Shown here piece after piece: positions 31,781-53,500 of a stretch of 64,000 bases of DNA (positions are counted from its first letter, which is position 1; every line of letters begins with the position of its first letter). This stretch comes from Loxodes magnus (Eukaryota; Ciliophora; Karyorelictea; Loxodida; Loxodidae). The stretch lies in NCBI GenBank assembly GCA_946699065.1, contig CAMPDV010000018.1, positions 496,001 to 560,000 of the forward strand. Reading direction: 5' to 3'. The position numbers were made by a program, and so were the translations under genes. The notes below the pieces were generated by a model. The model ran no database searches. It was not told the origin of the DNA and saw only the letters and a list, made by a program, of their open reading frames with translations.

Positions 31781-32770
31781 TAAATATGGCTATGTTCGCG
31801 ATAAGAAGAACTAGTAAATTTACTATTATTATTATGAATAAAAGTATTTGGTTTTCCTGTAGGTATTTCAACCTATTTCTTGTCTGCCTCCAGATTGCTC
31901 CAGAGGTTAAAATTAAATGTACGTACTCCACCCACTTTCCTGTCTTGCTTACTCTTAAAGTCTCTAGCTTCTCTTGCATTATTTGTTGCCTTTTTTCATG
32001 TATATATTCCCAAGAGTTCAACCATAACTGTTCTCTATTCCTTCTTATTTTGAGCTGTTACTACCTCTTCCTTTTTCCTCTGTTGACTTTGCTTTTGCCA
32101 ATAAATTTGTTTGAAATTTAGGAATTTCCTGCACCTCTTTCAAACGTGTTCTCTTAAACCACAGAAGTAGCATGATTTCATTACTCGCTTGCATAAAGAC
32201 TTGTCAAGTTTAATTTCTTCGATCTCCATCTTGTCTTATCTCTAATCCTTTGATTTAATTTACTTTTGCAATGTTTGCTAATTTTCTACTAGCTGTGCTA
32301 ATTTACCGTCAATTTCTTTGTATTTTCAATCTTGATTCTGGAATTAGCTGTTCTGACTCTGAGATATGTTCCAGAAAGTGCTTAAATCTCTCTCCTGAGA
32401 CATGAGTCTTGATTCGATTTCCTCTGGCTTGTTCAGATTCTCCATTAGTTTGTCATTATCCTTTTTAAGCTTCCTGACCTCTTCCTGGAGGTTTAGTACC
32501 ACTTTGATGAGCTATTCCATACTCATCTGGCTAGAAGGAACGAACTCTGAAATCTCCTAGTAAAGAGCAGACTTCCTCTTTCCTTGACTTTTTTTATGAG
32601 GCTGGAGCTATTGCATGCTTTGTCTTCTGAACTTGTTTCTCTTCCTCTCCAGGTTATTAGGATTAAGAAAAAGGTTAGAGCTGATGAAAAGAAGATTATC
32701 CAAGATTGGATCCAGGTTTCCTCTTCAACTTTTTGGAGGTTGTGTAGAAACTTCTTTTGAATCCTTCCAT
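31780..32770 (-). pseudogene. Gag-B-like ORF with intact CCHC knuckle but a frame change
   Basis: The ATG at 32770 opens MEGFKRSFYTTSKK. A different frame carries the main body: MEQLIKVVLNLQEEVRKLKK coiled coil (~32490), EIESRLMSQERDLSTFWNIS, LVENQQTLQKQIK, KMEIEEIK, then the zinc knuckle CYFCGLREHVWKRC (C-x2-C-x4-H-x4-C, ~32130-32175) and a basic tail. One frame change near 32540 separates start and body. The Trp in the knuckle is TGA. It is a retroelement Gag/ORF1 relic lying against the duplicated block at 32776. Confidence 0.6.
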
Positions 32771-32942
32771 TTTATATGTTATATAAACTTTATTATTGTA
32801 ACTATATATATAAGTATAAAAACTATAAAAATTAAATTATATATAATCTGATTAGCTTTGATTCTCCTTTTAAATATCTATTAATTAAAAGTTGGATAGA
32901 TAAGTAATAAATATTAAAAACACTTAAAGATATGTGAAAATC

Positions 32943-33805
32943 AATAGAATAGTAAATAAATTAAATTAAATTAAATTAAAAATTTTATGGATAATGGAAT
33001 GTTTCCTTAATAGGTCCATAACCCCCTGCATTACCTTTTACAGGGTCTCGACTCGCCGGTGTCTCCACCCAAGTTCACTTCCGAGCTTCCCAATGGTCTT
33101 GGAGTTATCTTTTTTCTTCAAAGCTAACCATCCGAAGAAGGATAAAAATTTGTAAGTTCTTTCCAAATATTTTTTCTTATTTACCAATTCCTCCTACACT
33201 TTTTTCATAAGTGGAATAAACTGCCGCATATATAACATTTTTTCTTGAAAATTTTTTCTGTCGTCATAGGTTATTCTTCTATTACCATTGGATCATTATT
33301 TCTTTTTAGGTCTTATTCCTTTAATTTTCCTAGTCTCTTTTTTATGTCCGTTATTTATTAAAATGCGTTTTCATACTTTAAGAAATTTGTTCCCATTTAT
33401 TTATCAATTCTTACTATATCGCATTCTATTTCTTAATATCTGTTGTTAATGTCCTCTTTGGTCACAAATTCATTATGCGGTCTCTCGTCCTCGAAATGAT
33501 CTTATAAATCTTATTGTAAACTCATGACGTAATGTTCGAGGTTCACTACCTTATCAATGTAATCAAAAATGATTTAAACAAGAGACTTTTTATCTTAGTT
33601 CATAAGTTGCTCGAAGGTGTAACTCTTTTTTGAAATCTTGGAAGGAAATTATTTTTCTACTGAGATTTTACAATATTATTTCTTTTTTGTTTTTGTTGGA
33701 GTTTGTTAGAGCTGGAAAGATTGATCTAAGGAGCTACGAGAAGCCTTTTAGTAGAGAAAGCCTTTGTTCCATTCCGCCATCTTTTTTTTTTATAATAGAA
33801 TAGTA
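32943..33805 (-). mobile_element. Complete ORF1-only (Gag-like) retroelement, 839 bp, with 12 bp TSD
   Basis: AATAGAATAGTA is present at 32943-32954 and at 33794-33805. The paralogous site in the other copy (46319-46330) has it once and no insert, which proves insertion. On the minus strand the element begins with an A-run, then GATGGCGGAATGG, and carries one intact Gag-like ORF (33118-33780). It then has a GC-rich ~110 nt region (33010-33117) and ends in a (TTTAA)n tail (32955-32980). There is no RT and there are no terminal repeats. Tail, duplication length and layout fit target-primed reverse transcription by a LINE partner. Confidence 0.88.
33118..33780 (-). CDS. Intact CCHC zinc-knuckle Gag/ORF1-like protein
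   Basis: 220 residues from ATG (33780) to TGA (33118), no frame break. N-terminus MAEWNKGFLYQKASRSS; a basic Q/K-rich stretch to ~50; predicted coiled coil ~residues 55-160 (FEQLMNQ, DYIDKVVNLEHYVMSLQQ, ITDIKKRLGKLKEQ). The zinc knuckle is C182-Y-I-C185-x4-H190-x4-C195, followed by a basic end. Within the knuckle Trp192 is TGA, so a standard-code reader would cut the protein there. Likely role: RNA-binding, chaperone-like protein that packages the element RNA. The other Gag-like copies in the window have the same order but are broken, so this is the youngest. Distinct from LTR Gag by lack of capsid and protease. Confidence 0.8.
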
Positions 33806-33829
33806 GATACATTTAAAATATTGTAATAG

Positions 33830-35130
33830 TTAACTCTTTACATCAACTTTATTTTAAATAAATTAATAATAAAGAAATCAACATAAAACAGTATTTCATA
33901 TTAATAATTATATTTATAATCATATCAAGATAATGAAAATCCTTTTATTTAAATTATTACTTTTAGCTTTTTAAAAGAAATATTTACCTTTTATTAAAAC
34001 TTTAAAACTAAATGTCTTTACCAATTAACTTAGCTCGTTCTTAATTATTATTCTTCGTTTAGCTTCTCTTTACTATACCTAGTTTCTTTCTAGTTATTAA
34101 AAACTTCTAAATCTGTCTTTTAGAACTTACCAAATATTGCTTTAGGTCAATTCTTAAGTCTATCTGTTACTAACCTCAATTTTGAAGCGCCTTTTTCAAT
34201 TATACTTTGAATATTATAATATAAGGTATCTTCTAGAGTTTATTCTATTACTCTCACAGATCATTGCAAATTTGCAATTTATGATATCAGCTTTTTAGTT
34301 ATAATTTCCAAAATTTAATTAGATTTATGGTTAGATGATGATCTTTTATCTAGCTAAACGGAATAATAGGCTTTACATGATTCTGATTTGTTTTTACTCT
34401 GGTCTATAAAGATTATATAAAGCTTGAATCTTAATTTGTGTTCTTCAAAATCAGCAAATGTATTCTAGCTAAGACACTAATAATTCTTAAACATAAGAGT
34501 TAATTTAAATACTCATAGACTTTCTAAATGATAAACACTTATTTTACTTTTTAAAATAAAGCAGAAAAAGCAATTTAATCTTGGGAATTTGTATTTGTCT
34601 ATTATGTGTTTACGTAACTCAGTAAGATCTAAGGAAATTCCTTCATCTAAATTAATACTTTTAAGTATATGTTGAGAAGGTAAGGACCAATCTAGTTATT
34701 TTCCTTATTTAAGGAAGCTTTAATATTGTTCTTTCAAATGATTGAAAACTAAGAATCAAAAAGCATATAATTGTAAATTGTTATTATATCTACACTTTCA
34801 CATTTTCTAGTCTGTGCCAAAATTACTCAAAATAGAAACTAAAAAATTTCAAGGCAGATAGTATTAAGTAATTGCTTGCTAAGTTCATAAAAAGTTTGCT
34901 ATAATGAAGATTGCTGTTATATGCCTAAAGTTAATATGTTTACTCTGTAAATAACACTAAATTATCTAGTTTAATGGATAATTTGATATTCTTTATTAAA
35001 TACTTGAGTGACTCTTAGCTTTCTTTATCTAATAAACAAATAATTTGTAGATTTAGGAAACTAAATATAGCTTCTATTCTATTTACTTGCTAGCTTTTTA
35101 TCATTTCTCTACTTGTTTTCATATCAAAAT
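33830..35130 (-). pseudogene. Unidentified coding-like block downstream of MFS copy 3
   Basis: Frames shared with the inverted-repeat arms: DFDMKTSREMIKSQQ, NLVLFTEQ, SCKAYYSVQLDKRSSS, ILEIITKKLISQIANL, and FQQKVNI...LMQRVNY. The protein would be a mix of hydrophobic segments and a Q/K/E-rich helical C-terminal part. Frame changes between these segments suggest decay or unseen introns. No family recognised. Confidence 0.35.
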
Positions 35131-35620
35131 CTTCTAAATCTAAATAGTACCTTTTAAGAGACTCTTTATTTATTATGCAAATGAAATGATTTAGAAGCTA
35201 ATTAAGCATAGTTATAGAAAATGGAATAAATAAATGTTTAGTTGCTAAATGAAGAGTTTAATATAGTTGAAGAGCATTAAAAGTGAATGTAATTTTCCTT
35301 TACTAAATAGATATAAATATACTAAACTTTACTTAATAGCAAAGTAGAGAAACTTTGTTACTATTTAAATGAGAAAATATCTAATACAAGATAAATAAGC
35401 AGAGCTAGCTAGCCTAGTTACATTAAGGCAAGCTAAATAATAATAGTTATAAACTATTATAAGCATAAAATCTAATAACTAAGCAATATAAACTATCTAG
35501 CTTTATATTATACTATTAAACTAAATTTAATTTCTTAAACATATTAATTATAATTTATATAGGATAGAAAAACCACTCTATATCTTTAATTAAGGGATTA
35601 TTTACTATTATTTTTGTTTA

Positions 35621-36726
35621 AACCATAAATTTGAAGTATTAGATAACCTTGAAAGTTAATAATAAGAGTAATATAGATTGATGATAGAAATGTATGATAT
35701 TTAAGCACTTAGAACTTAATAGTTTAATAATAATAATTTTTCTTAAGATTAAGGGAAAAAGCTATTATAAGCATTAAATTATCTCCCTTTGATTAGGTTT
35801 AAAGAATAATATAAATAAACAATTAGATAACTAGATACTCATACTATTTAATCTTAATCATTAGTATAATTAAAAGATTAAAGAGTTTATTAATAATAAT
35901 CTTAACAATTTTACTAGCAACTGTCTAAATATTAAATATTAAACAAAATATCCCTCTATCATTATATAATTAATTAGCAGCAAGATATGGATTGTGGTAA
36001 GTATATAAATGTGTTTCATCATAGACTATTAGTAGTAAAGCAATAATACATTAATTAAACTAAATATTGCTTTATGAATAAAGCATAAGAATGATATGAT
36101 ATTATGCAACTAAAATATATCTGCCTAATTTAACTTAATGCTCTAGAAATTGTCTATTAGATTTAAATTATTACAAATATTATAAATGTAGTTAAATAGA
36201 AAATAGTTTTTAAGAATTTTTTATTAGTTAAATACATTTAAATTATTTATTCTTGGCATAATTATCAAACAGTAGAATACTAAGTAAAGAGAACTCAATT
36301 TTCATTAAGACTGTAAATGAACTAACATAATTGCATTAAGAACTTTAGCAAATCATAAGATAAATCAAATAAAGGGAATATTAAAATATAATTAAAAGCA
36401 AATAGTAAATTTAAAAACTTTATTATTATATCCAAGTATTAGATTGCTAGCTTATTCTTTTTTATCTTATTTATATAATGAGAAATATACTTTAAGAAAC
36501 TTTTAATTGTAATAAATGGTTTAAAATTTAAGTTTTAATACTTTAGCTCTTTATTTATAAAATTTATAAAATAAATTTTTGCTTCCAAAATGTCACTATT
36601 TTATTGACAAGAAAAGCATGTTTAAGGTTAATTATTAAAATAATAGATTTAAGAAATGAGAGACATATGTAGGGCGAGAACTTTTAATAAGAAAATTAAT
36701 CTATTGTTTTCGAATTGCTTTTTAAA
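35621..36726. other. AT-rich region between MFS copy 3 and its duplicated block
   Basis: An open minus frame continues past the transporter stop (hydrophobic, e.g. near 36250-36450), but there is no independent support. Not shared with the copy 4 flank beyond ~35620. Confidence 0.3.
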
Positions 36727-38211
36727 TCACGACATTTCTTCTGAGCTTGCTTGTTCACTATTATATCGGTTTGGCTATACTCTATTAATTGGAGCAGAAA
36801 TATCTTCTAAAATTATTTATTCGCAGTCAAATCCGAAGAGATATCCAATTATTCCTCCAAAAGCCATTAAAATAACAGCAGCTACATATCCCCAAAACAA
36901 ATATATTCTTTCTATTTTTCCTATTATCCAACCATATATCAAAGGTCCTGCTACTCCTCCTATCAGAGTTCCTACAAAATAAAAAAATCCTATTGCAATA
37001 GCTCTTACTTCTTAGGGAAATATTTCTGAAATTGTTAAATATGCTGCTGAAGCACCAGCTGAAGCAAAAAAAAACGATCCAGACCAAAAGAGTGTCATAA
37101 TTACTGGTGTATTGATTATATGAGAAACAAATAAAATACCACATAGAAAAAGAATTATTGCAGCTATTGTATAGGTGAATAAAATCATTTTTCTTCTTCC
37201 CACTGTATCAAAAAATCTTCCTAACACTATACAACCTAAAAAATTACTAGCTGCAAAAGGAAAAATATAGAAGGCAACATAATTATCCTTAATATCAAAA
37301 AAATCTTTTAAAGTAAGCCCATATGTTAGAAAAATAGCATTATAGAAAAAAGCCTAAGTAGTAATAAGCACAGAGGATAAAAACGATTTTCTAGGATAAG
37401 TTTTAACTGTGTATTTTATTTTATTTAAGTAGCTTTCTTAACTTTGTTTGACTGCTATATTTTAATTTGGAGGAACTTCATCGAATTCATATCCTGCATC
37501 TTCTATTGCTTCTTCTATTTTTTCTATATAAAATTCAGCTTCTTAAGCTCTTCCATGCATAAGTAACCACCTTGGACTTTCTGGCATAAAGCAACGAGCT
37601 ATAAGCACAACAGTTCCTAAAATTGTGCCTAATGCAAAACAAAGTCTCCATCCTACATTATCAGGAAATAAATTGCTTAAAAATAAAAGCTAAAAAGCAC
37701 TTGAGAAAGCTCCTCCTATTCACCAAGTTCCGTTAATAATAATATCAACTGTACCTCTAACTCGACTTGGAATCATTTCATCTACTGCACTATTAATACT
37801 TGAATATTCGCCTCCTACTCCTAATCCTGTTAAGAAAATACATGGAATTAGAGTTCAGAAGTTCCAGCAACCGCATGTAAGTGCAGTTCCTGTTAGATAT
37901 AAAATTGGAGTTATAATAAAAACTTTCTTTCTTCCCATTTTATCACTAATAACTCCTAAGATAATAGCACCTATAACAGCACCTGAAGTGTAACAAGCAC
38001 CAATAAATCCTACCTAGAAGCCAGATAAATCCATAGTGCTGTCATCTGATAACTTTCCTGATATTACTCCACCTATGTTTGTAACCTACAATCCATCCAT
38101 TATCCATGAAATGCCAAGACACATTGTAAGTTTCCAATGTCAAGAAGATCAAGGAAGACGATCTAGTCTGTAAGGAATTTTAGAATAAACGACTTAATTT
38201 TGTTAATCCAT
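36727..38211 (-). CDS. MFS transporter, copy 3
   Basis: 494 residues from ATG (38211; MDQQNQVVYSKIP) to TGA (36727-36729) with no frame break. It has all transporter marks of copy 1 but lacks the long N-terminal tail. Upstream in-frame codons (LLYNYQGKRN) resemble the tail of copy 2, so the true start could be further upstream. It has TGG where copies 1 and 2 have TGA at [10 protein letters not shown], evidence for TGA=W. In SEIFP-x-EVRA the residue x is Q (TAA) here and I or L elsewhere. Substrate unknown. Confidence 0.83.
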
Positions 38212-38877
38212 ATTAAATATATTTCTTTTACCTTAATAATTGTATAATAAATCTATATTTAAAACTAATTCTTATATCTTAGAAATTGTTTAAATCTATT
38301 ATATATCTAAATTATCTTATTTTTATTTGATTCACTATGTTTTCAGCAAAAATTTTTTTAATTTTGTAATATTTTTCTTAGATTTGAATAGTACTTAGGC
38401 TTAGCTAACATTAATAGGTAAATTAATCTAAAAAGTTAAAATGCATACTTATTTTATATATAAATGAGAAAAATGGCCATATTTAATAGAATATAGCGAT
38501 TTATTTTTTGGTGTTATCAACTTTATTTTTTCTTTTAGTGTATAAAGTTAATTTTGATTTTACTACCATCATTATAGCATTATTCTTATATTTTTAAGTG
38601 GACTGATATTTTGCTTAAAACTTTTTATAAAATCGAAATTTTTTTTTAAATGGGACTTGAGTTTATTTATTTGCCTAAAGTTATTAAAATGTTTGCTATT
38701 TCTTCTGCTTTTACCTACATAAAAAAATTAAATTCTGAAATCTTTCTTATGAAGATAATTTTATAGATTTGTTATTGTAAATATTATAAATATTATTTTA
38801 TAATCGGTTTACCTTCTGTTTAAATTAATAAATTAATAGAGTTCTTGAGACGTCTTTAATTGCAAGAAATTCTTCTT
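38212..38877. other. AT-rich region between MFS copy 3 and the LINE fragment
   Basis: No gene recognised; it contains the likely promoter of MFS copy 3 at its left end. Confidence 0.35.
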
Positions 38878-40041: not shown

Positions 40042-41467
40042 TTTTGCTACTAATGCGATATTTGATTTATCTGTAAAACGTTATTTCTTTATTCTCTGAC
40101 TTTTAAAGATAGTTTACTTATTTAGACTTAATAAATTCTAAAGAAGGGATGTAAATTCACTTTAAATGATATATGTCTGGAGAAAAGTTATTCTTATTCG
40201 ATGAAGCACTATTTAAATTTTAAATTATCTTTTTTTAATTATTTAAATTCTCCTTATAAGTTCAATATTAAAAATGGCGACAGACAATATTGGAAAAGTT
40301 TTATATCCCTCCTAAATTTAAAAAAGAAAGTAAGAGCAGTCAAATCTTCATCACACGTTTTCTTATATTTTGCCTTCATTTAATATGCCTTTCAACAGCC
40401 AAAAATAGTATCGTAAAAGAAAAAAATAAAAAACCTGATATTACAAAAATCTAAGAGACAACAAGAAATGTGATGGATGATGTTGTTTGTGTGTACTATT
40501 TTGGATCAGAGTAAGTGGATATAGCTTATCTAATAATGAAGGTTGTTAACATTAAAGAAGATTATAGTAACTAAAATATTTTATTGAAAATTCATAAAAA
40601 ATAAAAAAACAAAGGAATAGGAAGATGCTAGATATATGTCCTAAGAGCAAGATATTATAGCTTTTTGGAATATCAAATGAAATTTAAAAAAATTAGCCCA
40701 ACTCATTAAAACAAGAAAATAAATTGAAAAATAAAAGAAGACAAACAATCGACAGAGGAGTAGTCTGAATGGATATCGAAGAAAAAAATTAAAATGTAAA
40801 TATGATCCAGAATAAAACCTTAAATAAGGAGAATAAATTTCAGTTTTTCAGATAGGTTGAAATATCCTAAAAGGTAGATTTTGTATATCTTATCTCCAAT
40901 TAAAGATTATTTTAGTAAGAACAAATATTCAATTAATTAATCTCATAAAAATCAGAAACCTTTTAGCATAAAGCAGGCATAAATTAAATCCATGGTTTTT
41001 CTTTAGAGAAAGGGATTTCACATGTGATTATCGGTTCATTTTTCCTCATATTTTTTATGCTATTTTGAATGTTTGAAGAATCCTTTCTGCTTACTTTCGA
41101 AATAAAAATATTAACACTAAAAATAGCATAATTATGGTTAATTTTTTAGAGTTTAACTGATTATAATATAAGTTTATAAGAAATAACTCTTAGTTCTTAA
41201 GTTATAAATTATTGCATAAATTTACATAATTCTATTACTAAAATACTCTAAAAATATCTACATAGTTATTTGATTTAACTCAATGTAGTAACTACAACTG
41301 CTTGAAAGTTATTCTATTAAATATAAATAGATCTTATAATATCAAGATAATGCTTTGCTTTAGCATTTATTTAGGAAAATTAATTATTTATCAAGTAAAA
41401 CATACTTATAAAAGCTAAAATTCTTAGTAATTTATTTAAAAATTAAATAACACTAAAATAATATAAA
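40042..41467. other. AT-rich region with possible retroelement remnants
   Basis: On the plus strand around 40770 a MDIEEKNQNVN stretch recalls the KMEIEE segment of the Gag-like proteins, and an ATG frame at 40384 (MPFNSQKQYRKRK) has a Cys cluster. This is too degraded to call. Confidence 0.25.
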
Positions 41468-42260
41468 ATGGCTGGTTTCAGGAAGGCTTTTATATACGTC
41501 CTTAGAGCAGGAGAGAAAACCAGAATTATTTTCTCTTACCAAGCCTCAGCTACAACTAATCCATTCTTCTTAAGATCAAAAATTGACCTGCAGGTAGGAA
41601 ACTTAAAAAAATTAAGAAGTAATATCCTCAATAATAAAAATTGAAAGAAGCTAACTTTTTTCAGCATACAAATAGGCGCTGAAGAAAAATTCCAATCAGA
41701 GAAGTTGACACAGATCTCAAGACCTCCACTAAAAACTGAAAAAAGAGACCATTCAAATGAATCTTTGAAAGTAATAAATAAAAATAAGCAAATAAACAAA
41801 GAAGGCAAAGTACGATAATTAAATATAGATCCTGATTTTTTTGATATAGAAAATATTGAAATAGAAAAAATGAACTCTTAGATGATACAGTTATTATATC
41901 AATTTATAAAAAATTATAAAAATTCTAAGAGGATTTAAACTCATAGAAGGAAGAAATAGTTGAAATAAATCAGAAATTAATTGAGCATGCAGATGATGGT
42001 AAAGTCCATATGGTGTCCGAAAAGCTAAAACCGGAGTCTTTGATCGAACGAATGAGTTAGAGAATGATATTTTAATAATGAGAAACAAGATAAGAAAAGT
42101 TGAGTATAATTAAATTAAAACTAAAATTAATGGAAGAAAATTTATAGAACCTTCATAAAAAACTTCCATGAATATAGAGAAGCAAGAAATATATGCAACA
42201 TTTGCAAAAGTATTAGACATTTGTGACAGAAATGCCCATAATAGAAATAAATAAGAATGA
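41468..42260 (+). pseudogene. Gag-B-like retroelement ORF, frameshifted, knuckle intact
   Basis: The ATG at 41468 opens MAGFRKAFIYVLRAGEKTR. A coiled coil in another frame (LNSQKEEIVEINQKLIEH, then EKLKPESLIERMSQ) matches NLNKPEEIESRLMSQ of the 32.4 kb copy. The zinc knuckle CNICKSIRHLWQKC (42196-42237) has perfect C-x2-C-x4-H-x4-C spacing with Trp encoded by TGA. At least two frame changes are needed, so it is non-functional. Confidence 0.6.
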
Positions 42261-43149
42261 ATATCTAGAGAAATAGTAACTGTTAGCTACTGAGCTAAAA
42301 ATGACGGAATACTTCCCATCGGAAAATGGGAATATTTGAAAGAAAAGCAACTTGATAATTCTGAATATAAAAAGAAAGGAAGCCATGGAAAAATTAAATG
42401 CTAGGATAGAGCATGCAGGAACGGAAATTTCATAAATTAAAACTTCAATTAAACTGAAGGGCGAATAGTTACTTTAATGATTAATGATTAAATAAAACTA
42501 AACAGTTTTAAATTTGAATAATAAATTAAGGATTAGCATTATATCAATAAAATTACTTTATTTTACTAATTATAAAGAATTACTTAATAGCAAGCTTACT
42601 TTTTCTTTTAGAAATCTAAATACAATAATTAAAAAATAGAATTAAATTATTAAGTATATAGCTCATAATAAAAGGTTTTAAAGCTGGGCTTATTAATAAT
42701 ATTTTTATTAAATAATAGCGTAAGAAAAATAAGCAAAATAATAATTTTGTTAAATATTATACCTTAGTAGAATAAGCAAAGTTGCTTATTACATTTATTA
42801 AGTTGCTAATCTCTAGTATTCAATCAAATAATTAGATTCCTTATTATTCTTAAATTTATTATTATTACTTAAAATTAAAAGTATTGCTGTCATTTCTTAT
42901 TTACAAATTAAGAGCCAAACATTATAAAATTTGGTTTAAATTAATATGGAACTAAAGTTACTACTTTTTAAAGAAAACAATGAAATAATAGAATAAATCT
43001 TTCTATTTTAATTTAAAATTTATAAATATAACTATAAAGTAAAATAAAGTATAAGCCACAATATTATAGTTTGCTAACCTAAAGATGCAAAATGAAATCT
43101 TAGTAAATTATAAATTAATAAAATTAGACTAATAATTAACTTTAACTAA
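42261..43149. other. AT-rich region with no supported gene
   Basis: Apart from the 3' flank of the Gag relic (slightly GC-richer to ~42480), I see nothing supportable here. Confidence 0.3.
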
Positions 43150-43768
43150 ATGTAATCAATTTTTGCGTTCCTTGAACTTTCAATCAGGTATCTGCGGAAA
43201 ATTTTTTTCGTAGTTGTATTTCTCTGCCTTGCTATCATCGGATGGTTACCAAAAGGATTTTCTTAGCTTCTTATGGATAGTTTCTATTTATAGAAGCCTC
43301 ATTCAGATATTCATAATTTATTTAAATTTCTTAGGTTCATTAGTTTTCATTTTGCTTGACCTGTCTTTATTCTTTGCAGAGGCTTATTAAATAATATTTA
43401 GATTAACAGTACCAACAACTTTTCTATTTTTTTTACCGTTTTCTTCTTTGGATAAACCTTATTTTCTAGCATTCAAATTATTTTGCTTAAGTTTGTGTTA
43501 ATTTGTTCTTAGCTTTTCTTTTCTTAATTCTGTTTTTTATGTAAATCTTCTTCTATAATTATTCTTTGCAGAAGATTTTCCTGCTTTAGTGTTTTTTTAA
43601 ATTTGTTATTCTTAGAAACGATTTTATTTTATTCTAAAATAAATTTGTTTCATAGAAGCAATATATTTAGAAGTTGTTTCCTTACAATGACCTATCAGGT
43701 TCTTTTTAAATTTTTAAACTTCTAAATATGTGTTTTTTGCTGTTTCTAAGAGATAAGAGAGTCGTCAT
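43150..43768 (-). CDS. Possible coiled-coil/basic protein, unrecognised
   Basis: The minus frame from ATG (43768; MTTLLSLRNSKKHIFRSLK) runs ~206 codons with K/E/Q-rich helical sequence and a final basic segment (NPFGNHPMIARQRNTTTKK). The composition is protein-like and the last part is GC-richer. However, no TGA closes it nearby and no homologue in the window confirms it. It could be another retroelement ORF. Confidence 0.25.
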
Positions 43769-46152: not shown

Positions 46153-48151
46153 TATTTTATAAACTTTATTATTGTAACTATATATATATAAGTATAAAAA
46201 CTATAAAAATTAAATTATATAATCTGATTAGCTTTTATTCTCCTTTTAAATATCTACTAATTAAAAGTTGGATAATTAAGTAATAAATATTAAAAACACT
46301 TAAAGATATGTGAAAATAAATAGAATAGTAGATACATTTAAAATATTGTAATAGTTAACTCTTTACATTAACTTTATTTTAAATAAATTAATAATAAAGA
46401 AATCAACATAAAACAGTATTTCATATTAATAATTATATTTATAATCATATTAAGATAATGAAGATCCTTTTATTTAATTATTACTTTTAGCTTTTTGAAG
46501 GAAATATTTACCTTTTATTAAAACTTTAAAACTTTAAAACTAAATGTCTTTACCAATTAACTTAGCTCGTTCTTAATTATTATTCTTCGTTTAGCTTCTC
46601 TTTACTATACCTAGTTTCTTTCTAGTTATTAAAAACTTCTAAATCTGTCTTTTAGAACTTACCAAATATTGCTTTAGGTCAATTCTTAAGTCTATCTGTT
46701 ACTAACCTCAATATTGAAGCGCATTTTTCAATTATACTTTAAATATTATAATATAAGGTATCTTCTAGAGTTTATTCTATTACTCTCACAGATCATTGCA
46801 AATTTGCAATTTATGATATCAGCTTTTTAGTTATAATTTCCAAAATTTAATTAGATTTATGGTTAGATGATAATCTTTTATCTAGCTAAACGGAATAATA
46901 GGCTTTACATGATTCTGATTTGTTTTTACTCTGGTCTATAAAGATTATATAAAGCTTGAATCTTAATTTGTGCTCTTCAAAATCAGCAAATGTATTCTAG
47001 CTAAGACACTAATAATTCTTAAACATAAGAGTTAATTTAAATACTCATAGACTTTCTAAATGATAAACACTTATTTTACTTTTTAAAATAAAGCAGAAAA
47101 AGCAATTTAATCTTGGGAATTTGTATTTGTCTATTATGTGTTTACGTAACTCAGTAAGATCTAAGGAAATTCCTTCATCTAAATTAATACTTTTAAGTAT
47201 ATGTTGAGAAGGTAAGGACCAATCTAGTTATTTTCCTTATTTAAGGAAGCTTTAATATTGTTCTTTCAAATGATTGAAAACTAAGAATCAAAAAGCATAT
47301 AATTGTAAATTGTTATTATATCTACACTTTCACATTTTCTAGTCTGTGCCAAAATTACTCAAAATAGAAACTAAAAAATTTCAAGGCAGATAGTATTAAG
47401 TAATTGCTTGCTAAGTTCATAAAAAGTTTGCTATAATGAAGATTGCTGTTATATGCCTAAAGTTAATATGTTTACTCTGTAAATAACACTAAATTATCTA
47501 GTTTAATGGATAATTTGATATTCTTTATTAAATACTTGAGTGACTCTTAGCTTTCTTTATCTAATAAACAAATAATTTGTAGATTTAGGAAACTAAATAT
47601 AGCTTCTATTCTATTTACTTGCTAGCTTTTTATCATTTCTCTACTTGCTTTCATATCAAAATCTTCTAAATCTAAATAGTACCTTTTAAGAGACTCTTTA
47701 TTTATTATGCAAATGAAATGATTTAGAAGCTAATTAAGCATAGTTATAGAAAATGGAATAAATAAATGTTTAGTTGCTAAATGAAGAGTTTAATATAGTT
47801 GAAGAGCATTAAAAGTGAATGTAATTTTCCTTTACTAAATAGATATAAATATACTAAACTTTACTTAATAGCAAAGTAGAGAAACTTTGCTACTATTTAA
47901 ATGAGAAAATATCTAATACAAGATAAATAAGCAGAGCTAGCTAGCCTAGTTACATTAAGGCAAGCTAAATAATAATAGTTATAAACTATTATAAGCATAA
48001 AATCTAATAACTAAGCAATATAAACTATCTAGCTTTATATTATACTATTAAACTAAATTTAATTTCTTAAACATATTAATTATAATTTATATAGGATAGA
48101 AAAACCACTCTATATCTTTAATTAAGGGATTATTTACTATTATTTTTGCTT
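46153..48151 (-). repeat. Duplicated block downstream of MFS copy 4 (empty-site copy)
   Basis: Near-identical to 32776-35620 without the retroelement insertion; AATAGAATAGTA occurs once (46319-46330). Right of 48151 the two copies diverge abruptly, while their transporter genes remain similar. Confidence 0.85.
46355..47660 (-). pseudogene. Unidentified coding-like block downstream of MFS copy 4
   Basis: Same sequence and same broken frames as 33830-35130. A 1-nt indel between the two copies near 33945/46475 and a 9-nt indel just after it argue that this part is not under tight coding constraint. Confidence 0.35.
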
Positions 48152-49053
48152 AAATTGTATATTCATACTATTTAATCTATATTCATTAGTATAATTAAAA
48201 TATTAAAGAGCTTATAAAATAATCTTAACAATTTTACTAGCAACTGTCTAAATAATAAATAAAAGCTCTACTTTTAAAATATCATGTATCATTATATAAT
48301 TAATTAGTAGCAATATATTAGCTTAAAGTAAGTGCATAACTGTGTTTGAATTATAAATATTTGTAATAAAGCTATAATAAATTAAATATAGCCTTATGAA
48401 GAAAATATAATATATAAGTATGATGCTAAATAACTAACACATTCCTTCTTCTTAGTTTATCTTAATATTTAAGATATAATTATAATTAAATTTATAACTA
48501 TTATTAGTAATGTAAATGAATAGATAATTAATTCCTAAGAATATAATATCAATCTAATATATACTTAAATTATTAATTCTAAGTATAATTATTCTGTTTA
48601 TCAGCTAGTAGAAGGCAAGAAAATATTATTTATTTTGAACTAATTTTATAAATAAAATAACTTAATGTTACTAAGAAATTTAGTAAATTAATAAAAGATA
48701 AAAGAAAAACTAAAAAACTAATAAAAAATAAAAATAATAGGAAAATATTAAAGATAATTATTTCCAAGTATAAGTTTCTATATACTTTTAATAAACCAAT
48801 TATATAATATGTAATATACTTTAAATAATCTTTTTATATTAAATAAAAGTTAAAAAATAAATGTTTATCTGTTTCAAGTTCTTATTTTTAAAACTTCAAA
48901 TATATAATCTTAATATTCATAAATGATGGTCTAGTTTGACAATAAAAATGTTTTATAATAATTATAAGGATGGGAATTTATAAAAGGAGATAAATTTAGA
49001 GCTAAGAGTTTAAATAAAAAAGATAATTACGAAATTTTTATTTTCCTTTTTAA
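48152..49053. other. 3' flank of MFS copy 4, AT-rich
   Basis: No gene recognised. The transporter frame would extend to a TGA at 48874-48876 if the terminal TAA is read as glutamine. Confidence 0.35.
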
Positions 49054-50538
49054 TTAAGATATTTCCTCATAACTTAATTGCTCGTTAAAATAATGCTTTG
49101 GTTATACTCTATTAATTGGAGTAGCAATATCTTCTAAAATTATTTTCTCGCAGTCAAATCCGAAGAGATATCCAATTATTCCTCCAAAAGCCATTAAAAT
49201 AACAGCAGCTACATATCCCCAAAACAAATATATTCTTTCTTCTTTTCCTATTAACCAACCATATATCAAAGTTCCTGCTATTCCTCCTATCAGAGTTCCT
49301 ACAAAATAAAAAAATCCTATTGCAATAGCTCTTACTTCTAATGGAAATATTTCTGAAATTGTTAATCATGCTGCTGAAGCACCAGCTGAAGCAAAAAAGA
49401 ACGATCCAGACCAAAAGAATGTCATAATTTCTGGAGTATTTATTATATGAGAAACAAATAAAAAACCACATAGAAAAAGAATTATTGCAGCTATTGTATA
49501 GGTGAATAAAATCATTTTTCTTCTTCCCACTGTATCAAAAAATCTTCCTAACACTATACAACCTAAAAAATTACTAGCTGCAAAAGGAAAAATATAGAAG
49601 GCAACATGACTATCCTTAACATCAAAAAAGTTTTTTAAAGTTAGCCCATATGTTAGAAAAATGGCCTTATAGAAAAATGTCTAAGTAGTAAAAAGTACAG
49701 AGGATAAAAATGCTCTTCTTGGGTAATTTTTAATTGTGTATTTTATTTTATTTAAGTAGCTTTCTTAACTTATCTTAACTGCTATATGTTTCTCTGGAGA
49801 AACTGTCTAAAATCTTTTTCCAGCAAATTCTATCTCTTTTTCTATTTTTTCTATGTAAAATTCAGCTTCCTAAGCTCTTCCATGCATAAGTAACCACCTT
49901 GGACTTTCTGGCATATAAAAACGAGCTATAAGTACAATAATTCCTAAAAGTGTGCCTAATGCAAAACAAAGTCTCCATCCTACATTATCAGGAAATAAAT
50001 TGCTTAAAAATAAAAGCTAAAAAGCACTTGAAATAGCTCCTCCTATTCAATAAGTACCATTAATAGCAATATCAACTGCACCTCTAACTCGACTTGGAAT
50101 CATTTCATCGACTGCACTATTAATACTTGAATATTCGCCTCCTACTCCTAATCCTGTTAAGAAAATACATGGAATTAGAGTTCAGAAGTTCCAGCAACCG
50201 CATGTAAGTGCAGTTCCTGTTAGATATAAAATTGGAGTTATAATAAAAACTTTCTTTCTTCCCATTTTATCACTAATAACTCCTAAGATAATAGCACCTA
50301 TAACAGCACCTGAAGTGTAACAAGCACCAATAAATCCTACCTAGAAGCCAGATAAATGCATAGTACTTTTATCTGATAACTTGCCTGATATTACTCCACC
50401 TATGTTTGTAACCTACAATCCATCCATTATCCATGAAATGCCAAGACACATTGTAAGTTTCCAATGTCAAGAAGATCAAGGAAGACGATCTAGTCTGTAG
50501 GGAATTTTAGAATAAACGACTTAGTTTTATGGGTTCAT
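49054..50538 (-). CDS. MFS transporter, copy 4 (ends at TAA, not TGA)
   Basis: From ATG (50538; MNPQNQVVYSKIP) to a TAA (49054-49056) at the exact position where copies 1-3 have the terminal TGA. The length (494 residues) equals that of copy 3. All transporter motifs are kept and no frameshift is seen. If TAA is always Gln, the protein gains 60 non-conserved residues to TGA 48874. Codon choices differ at several conserved spots (GLIYGWL changed to a T/V-containing context), and one AAY motif reads MLT-like (TTAATC for TTAAATA), so constraint may be relaxed. Confidence 0.78.
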
Positions 50539-53500
50539 ATTAATTATCTATCTTTTACCTTATCTATTATATAATAATTCTAAAGCGTTAAAATATTTTA
50601 AAATTCTAAGGATTGATGCAAATATGATTATATATCAAAATTTAGCTTCTTTTTATTATTTTACTTAGTTTAGCTAAGAAACGTTTTAAAATTTATTAAG
50701 AAATTTATTATACTTATATAATTTTTAAACTTAGCAAAACTTTAAACAATAGAAACAAAATTAATAGGAAAAATAAGTCAAATAATCATGTAAGAGAGAA
50801 TAACCTACGAAATAAGATCAAGAAAGTATTTAAAGTCTATTTATCGATCAATTTTTTTATTTTTAGAGACTAAATAATAAAATAAATATAAACTAAATAA
50901 AATAAAAATTATTTGAAAGATTCGAAAGAGACCAAAGAGAAATTTACGTAGCATCTCATCATGGCAAATCTTACGTTAGTACTAAGAAATCAATCTTATG
51001 TGATATCTTTCATTTATTCTGCTGATAGTATGTAATTTGAAGAACAATAATTTATGGAAAAATTACTTCTATGAAATGGAATCCATAAATATTTCAGCAT
51101 AAGATGTCAAAATTATTACACTCAATGAAAATGCTATAAAATACAGAAAGAAATATCGAAAAATTGAATTTTAACACCGAAATTAAGTAAATGTAAAATT
51201 AAGGAAGATCATAGTTCCTTACAAAAATGATAGAATTAACTACTACGTTGAATATACTGATTATAACCTTCGTATGTTACTTGCTTAACTTAGTGTAAGG
51301 CATTATAGGATTAATTATTATTTGAAGCAATTATTTAGTTAATAGACTAGCTATTTTCTTTAATTTTTGAGTACCAAAGTTATAGTAATTATACTAATTT
51401 TGTTTCTTATATATTTAGTTAATACTTTTCTATCTATTATTATTCTAGAAATTTAGCCAAAAAATATTATGAAGAAAAAATAGTAGATAAGCCTAATTAA
51501 AGATTGAAATTCATTTTACTAGTAATGAAAATATAATTTATTGATGTAGAAAAAATAATAACTTTCTTATTTTAAATAATAATGCTAAGAGTCTAAAACC
51601 AAAATGTGTTGAAATCAAACTCGATACAAGACTATGTAGCAATACAATCATCTAATAATTTCAAAACATTAATCAGTTAACTGATTTTGGCTTTTTTTAT
51701 ATTTTCTATTTTTTCTGTGCTTATCTATTATTGCATAAATATACAAAAACTTCTGGATTTTATTCATCCCTGTTTAATAACGTTTTCCATACCAGTTTAT
51801 CTCAAATAAGGAATTTTTCATACTTTTCCTTTGTTTCTGTTACTATTTAAAGATATTATAATGTCTAAAGCTGCTTTCTTCTGTGTGTATAATTTTAGAG
51901 GTTCTTTTTTCAAGAAGATCAGCATTTTTAAAATTATTTAATTATTTACTGCTAATTGGCGCTTATTTAGCATAAATATTCAGACAAAACGTATCTGTTA
52001 AAAACTTTTCTCAAAGCAATTATCATCTTTGATAAGTTATTTTCATAATTATAATTATTCCTTCCTCCATTTTCTTTAAGAAGAGTGAAATATCAACATA
52101 GAGCTAAAAATGTCAAGAAATCTTCTATTAATAGATCATTGAAAAGATGTTTTTATATTGTAGTTATAAAATTTAATTTAATTTCTTTACAATGTAAATA
52201 CAATTTCTTATTTTGATACAGAATTACTCTAAAATATATGTCTTGCTTATTTTTAATAAATTGTGAAATATCTACTTTTATATTAATTTCTTTTAATTTT
52301 ATAAGATAGAAACATTCATACTTAATTAGAGTTATTTTTAAGTGATTTTATGCAAAAATTATGTTTAATACATTTATAAAATACAAAATAAATTTTGTAT
52401 ATTTAGATAGGAGAGACAGATTATACGCAGAATTTTATATGGAAAGCTAGCATTTTAATTATTTATCATTTTGTCATTCTATTAATAATTCTATTTTTAA
52501 CTATCTAAATGCATATCTTAAGGCAAAAAAAAACAAATATTGATATATATGAGATTTATTACATAAAGGTACTGCTATATTTCGAATTTTTTAATTACTA
52601 GTTTAAACTAAAATAAATAAAAAATAATATGATTAAATAAAAAGTAAGCAAACTTAAGACTTAAGCATATACTAATACATATATTTTTTTTAATTTAATG
52701 TGCTAAGATTAATAAAATTTAAATCATACTATTATTTATTATTATTCTGAAATAATATCTAGTTAAGATTTGCTAAAAAAATCTAACAAATTGAATAGAA
52801 TTTGAAACTAAAAGGTTAGTGCATCAATTAGATGAGACAAGCGACTTACTTGGAATCATAATACAAGAAAATGGGCATTCAGCTACTGTAAATAAAGAAC
52901 TTAAAATTATTTGAAATCGATAACGAAATGCATTTATACTTTCAGAAGATAATATTACCCCTTGACAATTCAAAATACTCTGTCGCATGTTTATATTAGA
53001 CTAAAGCTTGTTCCTTTGACTTTAATGGAAGATTTACAGAATTTGAAGGAGAAAATAAGCAAGAGTATGCGTATAATGGCGAGGAAGTCTTTATAGCCAG
53101 CTATCTCTGCCTTTAATGGGTTCTGTTGCAAGGATTTTAGCTGACTTCCATTTGAACTCATTATGGCTAAATGCTTTTTCATTTTTACTTTAGAATATTG
53201 AAAGAAATTATAAATTATCCAAATTCTGACATAGAAAAACTCTGTGCAGTCACCTGGAGATCAAAATTTAAATATTTTAAGTAAGTACAAAAGATGCTTA
53301 AGCTCTACGGCATGAGTATAAATAGTCAATCTATGTTTTCTACTCCACTTCCTCATGAGAAATACATTGAAGATAAAATTAGATCAAAATATTATTAAGA
53401 AGTTATTTTATTTTATAAAGAAAGGCCAACTTCACGGATCTTACAACAGTAGTTAGAAGGACTTTAGAAATTTTTTGAGATAAATTATACTAAACTTAGC

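Follow-up and report, generated by a model that had tools for sequence, protein, structure and literature searches.

F1, a short Gag-coding retroelement family of Loxodes magnus without a reverse transcriptase, probably copied by that of another element

Retroelements that lack a reverse transcriptase (RT) are usually taken to be non-coding, as SINEs are, or to be coding forms of a LINE produced by deletion, as HAL1 is, with the telomere-tied HeT-A as an exception. An 839 bp insert in a 64,000-nucleotide stretch of Loxodes magnus DNA (this whole stretch is referred to as the window) raises the question of whether a SINE-sized element that encodes a Gag-like protein and no RT can be a mobile family in its own right. 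The reading favored here, with a probability of about 0.74, is that this element, designated F1, is an old, RT-less, non-autonomous but protein-coding non-LTR retroelement that is copied by an RT from elsewhere. The preliminary description of the locus is confirmed and largely explained by the results below. The MAC assembly of L. magnus is given as 706 Mbp, with translation table 27, in which UGA is both tryptophan and stop, in the available text of PMC11441545; the assembly searched in this study holds 705,730,643 bases, with the window at 496001-560000 of its contig C18.

The insert occupies 32955-33793 on the minus strand and was read directly between exact 12 bp repeats (Table 1). Both the 12 bp duplication and the empty paralogous site at 46.32 kb reported earlier were found by direct reading, the latter as a single target copy at 46319-46330, and the flanks of F1 match this paralogue, the left one with 94.4% identity (178 bp) and the right one with 98.8% (1837 bp). 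The GC-rich 3′ region and the (TTTAA)n tail of the preliminary description are likewise present, the 3′UTR having a G+C content of 45.5% compared with 29.9% for the ORF and 24.9% for the window. Because the A-rich leader that precedes the reading frame is no longer than 13 nt, any F1 promoter would have to be internal or borrowed. Aside from the insert, the surrounding DNA carries a segmental duplication (33794-38327 and 46319-50657) with 98.8% and 83% identity in two stretches. At ~9.5-12.3 kb and 18.6-21.4 kb, mirrored lists of ORFs of equal lengths (266, 235, 186, and 223 aa) on opposite strands point to a long inverted duplication.

Table 1. Features of F1, its target site, and the related short elements in the window.
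Feature	Positions	Strand	Remarks
F1 target site duplication, 5′-side copy	33794..33805	.	12 bp exact, AATAGAATAGTA (+ strand)
F1 target site duplication, 3′-side copy	32943..32954	.	12 bp exact repeat, AATAGAATAGTA
Empty paralogous target site	46319..46330	.	one copy of the 12-mer, insert absent
F1 5′ leader, A-rich, 13 nt	33781..33793	-	variable among copies; ORF start conserved in the copies shown
Gag-like ORF, 220 codons + TGA stop	33118..33780	-	karyorelict code; codon changes indicate purifying selection between subfamilies
Predicted long helices, coiled-coil type, residues 67-98 and 108-160	33301..33582	-	low-confidence single-sequence model
CCHC zinc knuckle CYICGSLFHLWKKC, W = TGA	33196..33237	-	codon 192 TGA in 18/19 A and 9/9 B copies
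Conserved 3′UTR, G+C-richer	32986..33117	-	few fixed A/B1 differences vs third positions
Terminal (TTTAA)n tail, 3′ end	32955..32985	-	unit number differs among copies
F2, short Gag-coding family, 952 bp, adjoins F1	31824..32775	-	shared copy limits; knuckle homologous to F1
F3, short Gag-coding family, 1034 bp, older	41458..42491	+	shared copy limits; knuckle homologous to F1

The intact Gag-like ORF of 220 codons attributed to this 839 bp element is borne out, running on the minus strand from an ATG at 33780 to a TGA at 33120-33118. Among the translation tables tried (1, 6, 10, 27, 29, and 30), the frame is open under code 27 alone, and code 6 interrupts the zinc knuckle. The sole internal TGA is codon 192, tryptophan in the karyorelict code, and lies within the C-x2-C-x4-H-x4-C motif. 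The TGA at codon 221, found in 19/19 copies of subfamily A and 7/9 copies of subfamily B examined (both described below), is likely the stop of the ORF. The label "Gag-like" calls for caution, as it is based on the CCHC knuckle and a predicted helix propensity. A Pfam scan of the window's F1 protein returned no model reaching its cut-off, and the same scan of 11 family members gave scattered weak matches (best E 0.0064) of no use. A profile search of the PDB was equally unusable, matching tropomyosin alone with an E of 0.6, and a single-sequence fold of the protein had a mean pLDDT of 47.9.

Searching the assembly with F1 DNA gave 647 first-look candidates, the best 40 of which were scored and consist of the window copy and 39 others, nearly full length and 96-97% identical. 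The corresponding protein search gave 5789 first-look candidates, of which 150 were scored. A non-random sample of 60 copies was then fetched, composed of the 40 best DNA matches and 20 chosen among the 150 scored protein matches for their range of identities. These 60 copies have 38 distinct 5′ flanks and are otherwise repeats of the same sites on duplicated or allelic contigs, so that counts of places in the assembly overstate the number of F1 insertions. At 31 of the 38 sites, the element is bracketed by exact repeats of 10 bp or more, as against 6.9% of 1406 controls in which 5′ and 3′ sides were taken from different F1 sites; the longest repeat per site has a median of 13.5 bp, compared with 7 bp in these controls. 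The duplications mostly measure 10-18 bp, and at 7/38 sites a repeat of 10 bp was looked for and none found. Both the ATG and position 800 (of 838 compared) are covered in 58/60 copies. The copies are dispersed inside contigs and combine target site duplications of variable length around full copies with a short AT-repeat 3′ tail of variable length, (TTTAA)n, as is typical of non-LTR elements inserted by target-primed reverse transcription. With 60 copies found at 38 distinct sites bearing different duplications, the element first described from one insertion is a mobile family.

Subfamily A, to which the window copy belongs, is accompanied among the 150 scored protein matches by others at 62-65% identity that cover residues 1-220 or nearly so. 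Ten fetched copies of this second group, B (B1, n = 6; B2, n = 4), align to A without a break over ~835 bp at 75.6-77.0% identity, and all ten retain the frame of A over the 220 codons, with 3 nt deleted in one copy. Codon ratios were obtained from 24/50 A, 6/6 B1, and 4/4 B2 copies, after removal of frame-shifted A copies and of most copies that duplicate a site already used, with TAA/TAG read as Q and TGA as W; per-site codon tallies used one copy per site (19 A, 5 B1, and 4 B2). The most reliable selection figure from these codon comparisons is that between B1 and B2, with a dN of 0.089, a dS of 0.88, and a dN/dS of 0.101, none of the 24 pairs being beyond correction. Uncorrected values are a pS of 0.742, a pN of 0.164, and a pN/pS of 0.220 for A-B1, and 0.708, 0.163, and 0.230, respectively, for A-B2. 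Since silent sites between A and B are near saturation, the corrected dN/dS ratios (A-B1 0.071, A-B2 0.083) are rough; 87/144 A-B1 pairs, omitted from the dS mean, and 3/96 A-B2 pairs were beyond correction, and the corrected A-B ratio was dropped as a precise figure on account of this saturation.

The distribution of changes along the codon agrees with these ratios. Fixed differences between A and B1 number 44, 29, and 96 at codon positions 1, 2, and 3, of 220 each (p 1.5e-13), and their majority codons are identical at 93 positions, differ silently at 68, and change the residue at 59. The Q codons TAA, TAG, CAA, and CAG swap silently between the two, and W is kept at 3/4 W codons, as TGG or TGA. 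Purifying selection on the F1 Gag between subfamilies, for which the dN/dS between copies had been proposed as a check, is shown by this codon pattern (B1-B2 0.101; pN/pS 0.220-0.230). It bears directly on the reading of F1 as a SINE with an accidentally long frame in a karyorelict code that has almost no stops. Chance frames of at least 100 codons are indeed common, 316 being present in the window under code 6, but the excess of third-position changes, the low ratios both within B and between A and B, the absence of frame shifts between subfamilies, and the retained tryptophans do not fit an accident. These selection, codon-position, and frame tests refute this reading, which is left with a vanishingly small probability.

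In 19 A copies from separate sites, 43 silent and 104 non-silent changes are private, giving an omega of 0.83 against a spectrum-based expectation (p 0.30), which is consistent with inserted copies drifting as if neutral. Shared changes within A (9 silent, 15 non-silent; p 0.24) are too few to show constraint alone, and the same applies to B1 and B2. Private change amounts to ~1.2% per A copy, so the copies are young. The RT-less form, on the other hand, is old: A and B are colinear yet near-saturated at silent sites, a combination that shows this form to predate their split. A frame-shifting indel is present in 21/60 fetched copies and absent from 39/60. In subfamily A, a run of 8 A near codon 50 has gained or lost one base at several sites, and because the shared frame shifts sit in this run, they may be recurrent or read errors; the spread of frame-shifted copies is thus not claimed as proof of help in trans.

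Whether F1 lacks an RT as a family, or whether one copy lost it, was addressed by counting its parts across the genome. With up to 3 mismatches and assembly duplicates included, a 3′UTR core common to A and B occurs at 577 places, and a degenerate sequence for the junction of Gag end and 3′UTR in A and B at 581. The agreement of these counts leaves no room for a sizeable set of 3′UTRs without the Gag end; it is a comparison of whole counts, with 3′-end and Gag-end places paired individually by eye for 16/54 among the matches listed. For subfamily A alone, again with up to 3 mismatches, the 3′ end is found at 279 places, the junction at 280, and the 5′ end at 263, and most A copies therefore extend to the 5′ end. 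The RT proteins of two LINEs of this genome, L079 and L080, match 1/60 F1 copies fetched with flanks. This copy (L061), matched on both sides, lies antisense inside a LINE RT region and has its own target duplication. The same two RTs have no match in the window. Judged on RT matches, F1 does not have the coding capacity of an autonomous LINE (RT plus endonuclease). The earlier proposal of an ORF1-only element, as opposed to a lone deletion product, thus stands, its relatives being without a downstream RT ORF so far as examined (577 cores, 581 junctions). F1 is RT-less as a family and not through a single accident.

For L. magnus, the accessible part of PMC11441545 reports about 2,700 copies of RVT_1, together with no fewer than two complete families of LINEs. 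An RVT_1 search of the assembly gave 3403 first-look candidates, of which 150 were scored, and a single family, L079, accounts for all of the 30 best RT loci. This family and L080 are possibly those reported in that text (PMC11441545). On contigs C5131 and C20, RT matches are repeated at intervals of 2,532 bp (and 2,504 bp), a regular spacing from which it follows that an RT-bearing LINE piece lies in tandem arrays there. The description of LINE ends is based on 30 loci of L079 and on single copies of other families. The 3′ end of L079 consists of a G+C-rich stretch, hairpin-like by eye, followed by (TTTA)n in 27/30 loci, while ends of the L080 type are mostly TAATTTAATT(A/T)ATT (220 matches when as many as 3 mismatches are allowed) and come nearer to the (TTTAA)n of F1. 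The F1 3′UTR itself had no match on L079-L082 or the 30 RT loci. L079 is accordingly unsupported as the 3′-end partner of F1, with its (TTTA)n tail and different 3′ end; L080 has the closer tail type, yet no UTR match, and remains a guess.

The window also contains two further short Gag-coding families, F2 and F3, each represented here by its window copy. For F2 there are 3488 first-look candidates, and the start falls at query 10-28 in 39, and the end at 967-988 in 38, of 40 other rows. For F3, with 2234 first-look candidates, 41 other rows include 22 with a start at query 56-61 and 26 with an end at 1088-1095; its scored rows have 72-78% identity, and the window copy looks frame-shifted. The knuckles of both match the F1 profile, F2 with a probability of 93% (E 2.5e-7) and F3 with 78% (E 1.9e-5). 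At the 5′ end, the similarity between F1 and F2 is borderline (11/1000 shuffles as good), and F2 and F3 do not match (214/1000). The left end of the 46 kb paralogy (32779) lies 4 bp from the F2 5′ end. Elsewhere, a repeated stretch at 43141-43568 is 69% identical to 6445-6851 of L082, and knuckle-like motifs (CWYC...H) in L082 and in L010 (24-71) hint at a further family.

These families and the LINEs together bear on an origin of the kind known for HAL1, in which a LINE with the F1 Gag as its ORF1 and with the F1 3′UTR lost ORF2 internally before its short form multiplied; what selection is recorded between A and B would then have taken place in that LINE. HAL1, which is derived from L1 and encodes ORF1p alone, arose several times according to the accessible text of PMC5753468. 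LINEs are also many in Loxodes, as the RVT_1 search indicates, and the 5′ sequences of F2 and F3 are common with L079 (0/1000 shuffles as good; for F3, 75% over 116 bp), so that short Gag-coding elements and LINEs do share parts. However, A and B are built alike from one end to the other, and two independent deletions would have to coincide. Given the agreement between 577 and 581 places, the assembly is not expected to hold a LINE carrying the F1 3′UTR (up to 3 mismatches). The F1 Gag shows no similarity to the ORF1s of L079 and L080, the LINE families that were read (hhalign probability 0.1 in each case, E 0.55-0.73), and these two ORF1s were set aside as its source. Finally, the F1 5′ end has no match to L079 (782/1000 shuffles as good) and hardly one to L081 (79/1000), in shuffles that preserve base content only, and a 5′ end shared between F1 and LINEs is not claimed. 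An internal deletion from a LINE is therefore considered an unlikely origin, and a long-standing RT-less element remains the preferred reading.

The 3′ part of F1 is its most conserved region. After the stop, A and B1 differ at 12/159 positions (tail columns included) as against 96/220 third positions (p 7e-16), and the 3′UTR is more conserved than any codon position. As one-base gaps occur among copies within it, the 3′UTR is unlikely to be read as protein. Judging from these alignments, either recognition by the RT of a partner element or a swapping of 3′ ends among subfamilies may lie behind its conservation. Folding gave a z of -0.74 and compensatory changes at 0/37 predicted pairs in 15 sequences, which leaves a structured 3′UTR as RT signal unsupported. 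Permissive Rfam scans of the window F1 and 5 other copies found no match to tRNA, 7SL, or 5S genes, and an origin from 5S rRNA, prompted by a resemblance, was set aside with them.

Retrocopies of host genes are a further possibility that the 3′ end helps to judge. The mRNA of one or two germ-line-transcribed genes for coiled-coil/CCHC proteins would have been copied by the LINE machinery, with selection acting on the host gene. Near-neutral inserted copies with strong constraint between lineages are also typical of processed copies of a host gene. The F1 tail, however, is a variable-length (TTTAA)n and not the poly(A) of a processed host transcript, and a 3′UTR that surpasses every codon position in conservation would be unusual in a host gene. 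Moreover, F2 and F3, whose knuckles are related, are high-copy short elements too, with 5′ ends that match a LINE. Host-gene retrocopies are for these reasons judged quite improbable, which again favors a retroelement with its own gene.

For such an RT-less element, the following route is proposed. The one gene on the F1 RNA would encode a protein of 220 residues that has a single CCHC zinc knuckle and, by prediction, long helices. The likeliest role of this protein is to coat its own RNA, which it would present to the reverse transcriptase/endonuclease of another element, presumably a LINE. The foreign RT would recognize the conserved 3′UTR and/or the (TTTAA)n tail, and the RNA would be copied into staggered nicks by target-primed reverse transcription, starting at the tail. 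Duplications of mostly 10-18 bp and mostly full-length copies, both of which are observed, would be the result. Selection on the source lineage would then preserve the Gag, while inserted copies drift. A Gag that served every RNA alike would be hard for selection to maintain in an RT-less element, and an effect in cis is favored by this argument. As a tentative extension, held at somewhat less than even odds, F1, F2, and F3 may represent a varied class of coding retroelements of SINE size in karyorelict ciliates, one not met with in the literature searched. Its members would be long-term parasites of LINEs that retain a gene, as opposed to deletion products of short life, and each lineage would last without an RT because its own Gag binds its own RNA in cis and thereby gains that RNA privileged access to foreign RTs.

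With ~580 matched places (duplicates included) and a Gag under selection without an RT, F1 suggests that a Gag can by itself be enough to pay for the spread of its gene. F1 also makes the role of a non-LTR Gag testable (cis preference, RNA coating, nuclear entry), because the Gag is the sole protein that F1 is seen to encode. Young coding elements can further be seen to sit among the repeats of the Loxodes somatic genome, described as mostly unclassified in the available portion of PMC11441545. The main text of that paper, as accessible, makes no mention of gag, SINE, CCHC, zinc knuckle, or non-autonomous (PMC11441545), and no report of F1 was found in the accessible literature on ORF1-only or Gag-only non-LTR elements, coding non-autonomous elements, and ciliate SINEs.

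Among known systems, the LINE families L079 and L080 of Loxodes itself have, like F1, a G+C-richer 3′ end followed by AT repeats; they are, however, ~5.5 kb long with EN and RT, and their ORF1 is unlike the F1 Gag. SINEs with LINE-like 3′ ends resemble F1 in size, in the short-repeat tail, and in their dependence on a foreign RT. Unlike those short, non-coding elements, F1 is short but encodes a protein under selection, and its 3′UTR was not found on the LINEs read. HAL1 is a few kb long, whereas F1 is SINE-sized at 839 bp. Both are non-LTR elements that encode an ORF1 or Gag-type protein alone and borrow their RT, as far as HAL1 is covered by the text of PMC5753468. The two differ in that HAL1 derives from L1, whereas the Gag and 3′UTR of F1 match neither LINE family read, and the 3′ end in common with a parent LINE that marks HAL1 has no counterpart for F1 among L079-L082 and the 30 RT loci. 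HeT-A, at ~6 kb and with a long 3′UTR, has a Gag with CCHC knuckles. It is itself without an RT, which comes from elsewhere, likely TART or TAHRE, according to the accessible text of PMC5537684, and it thus shares with F1 the state of an RT-less, Gag-coding non-LTR element that depends on a foreign RT, with a Gag that in F1, too, is under selection. HeT-A, however, targets chromosome ends, where it forms head-to-tail arrays, whereas the fetched F1 copies lie inside contigs, dispersed and with target site duplications. Taken together, F1 resembles the HAL1/HeT-A kind of element, but is unusually short and long-lived and has a conserved 3′ part.
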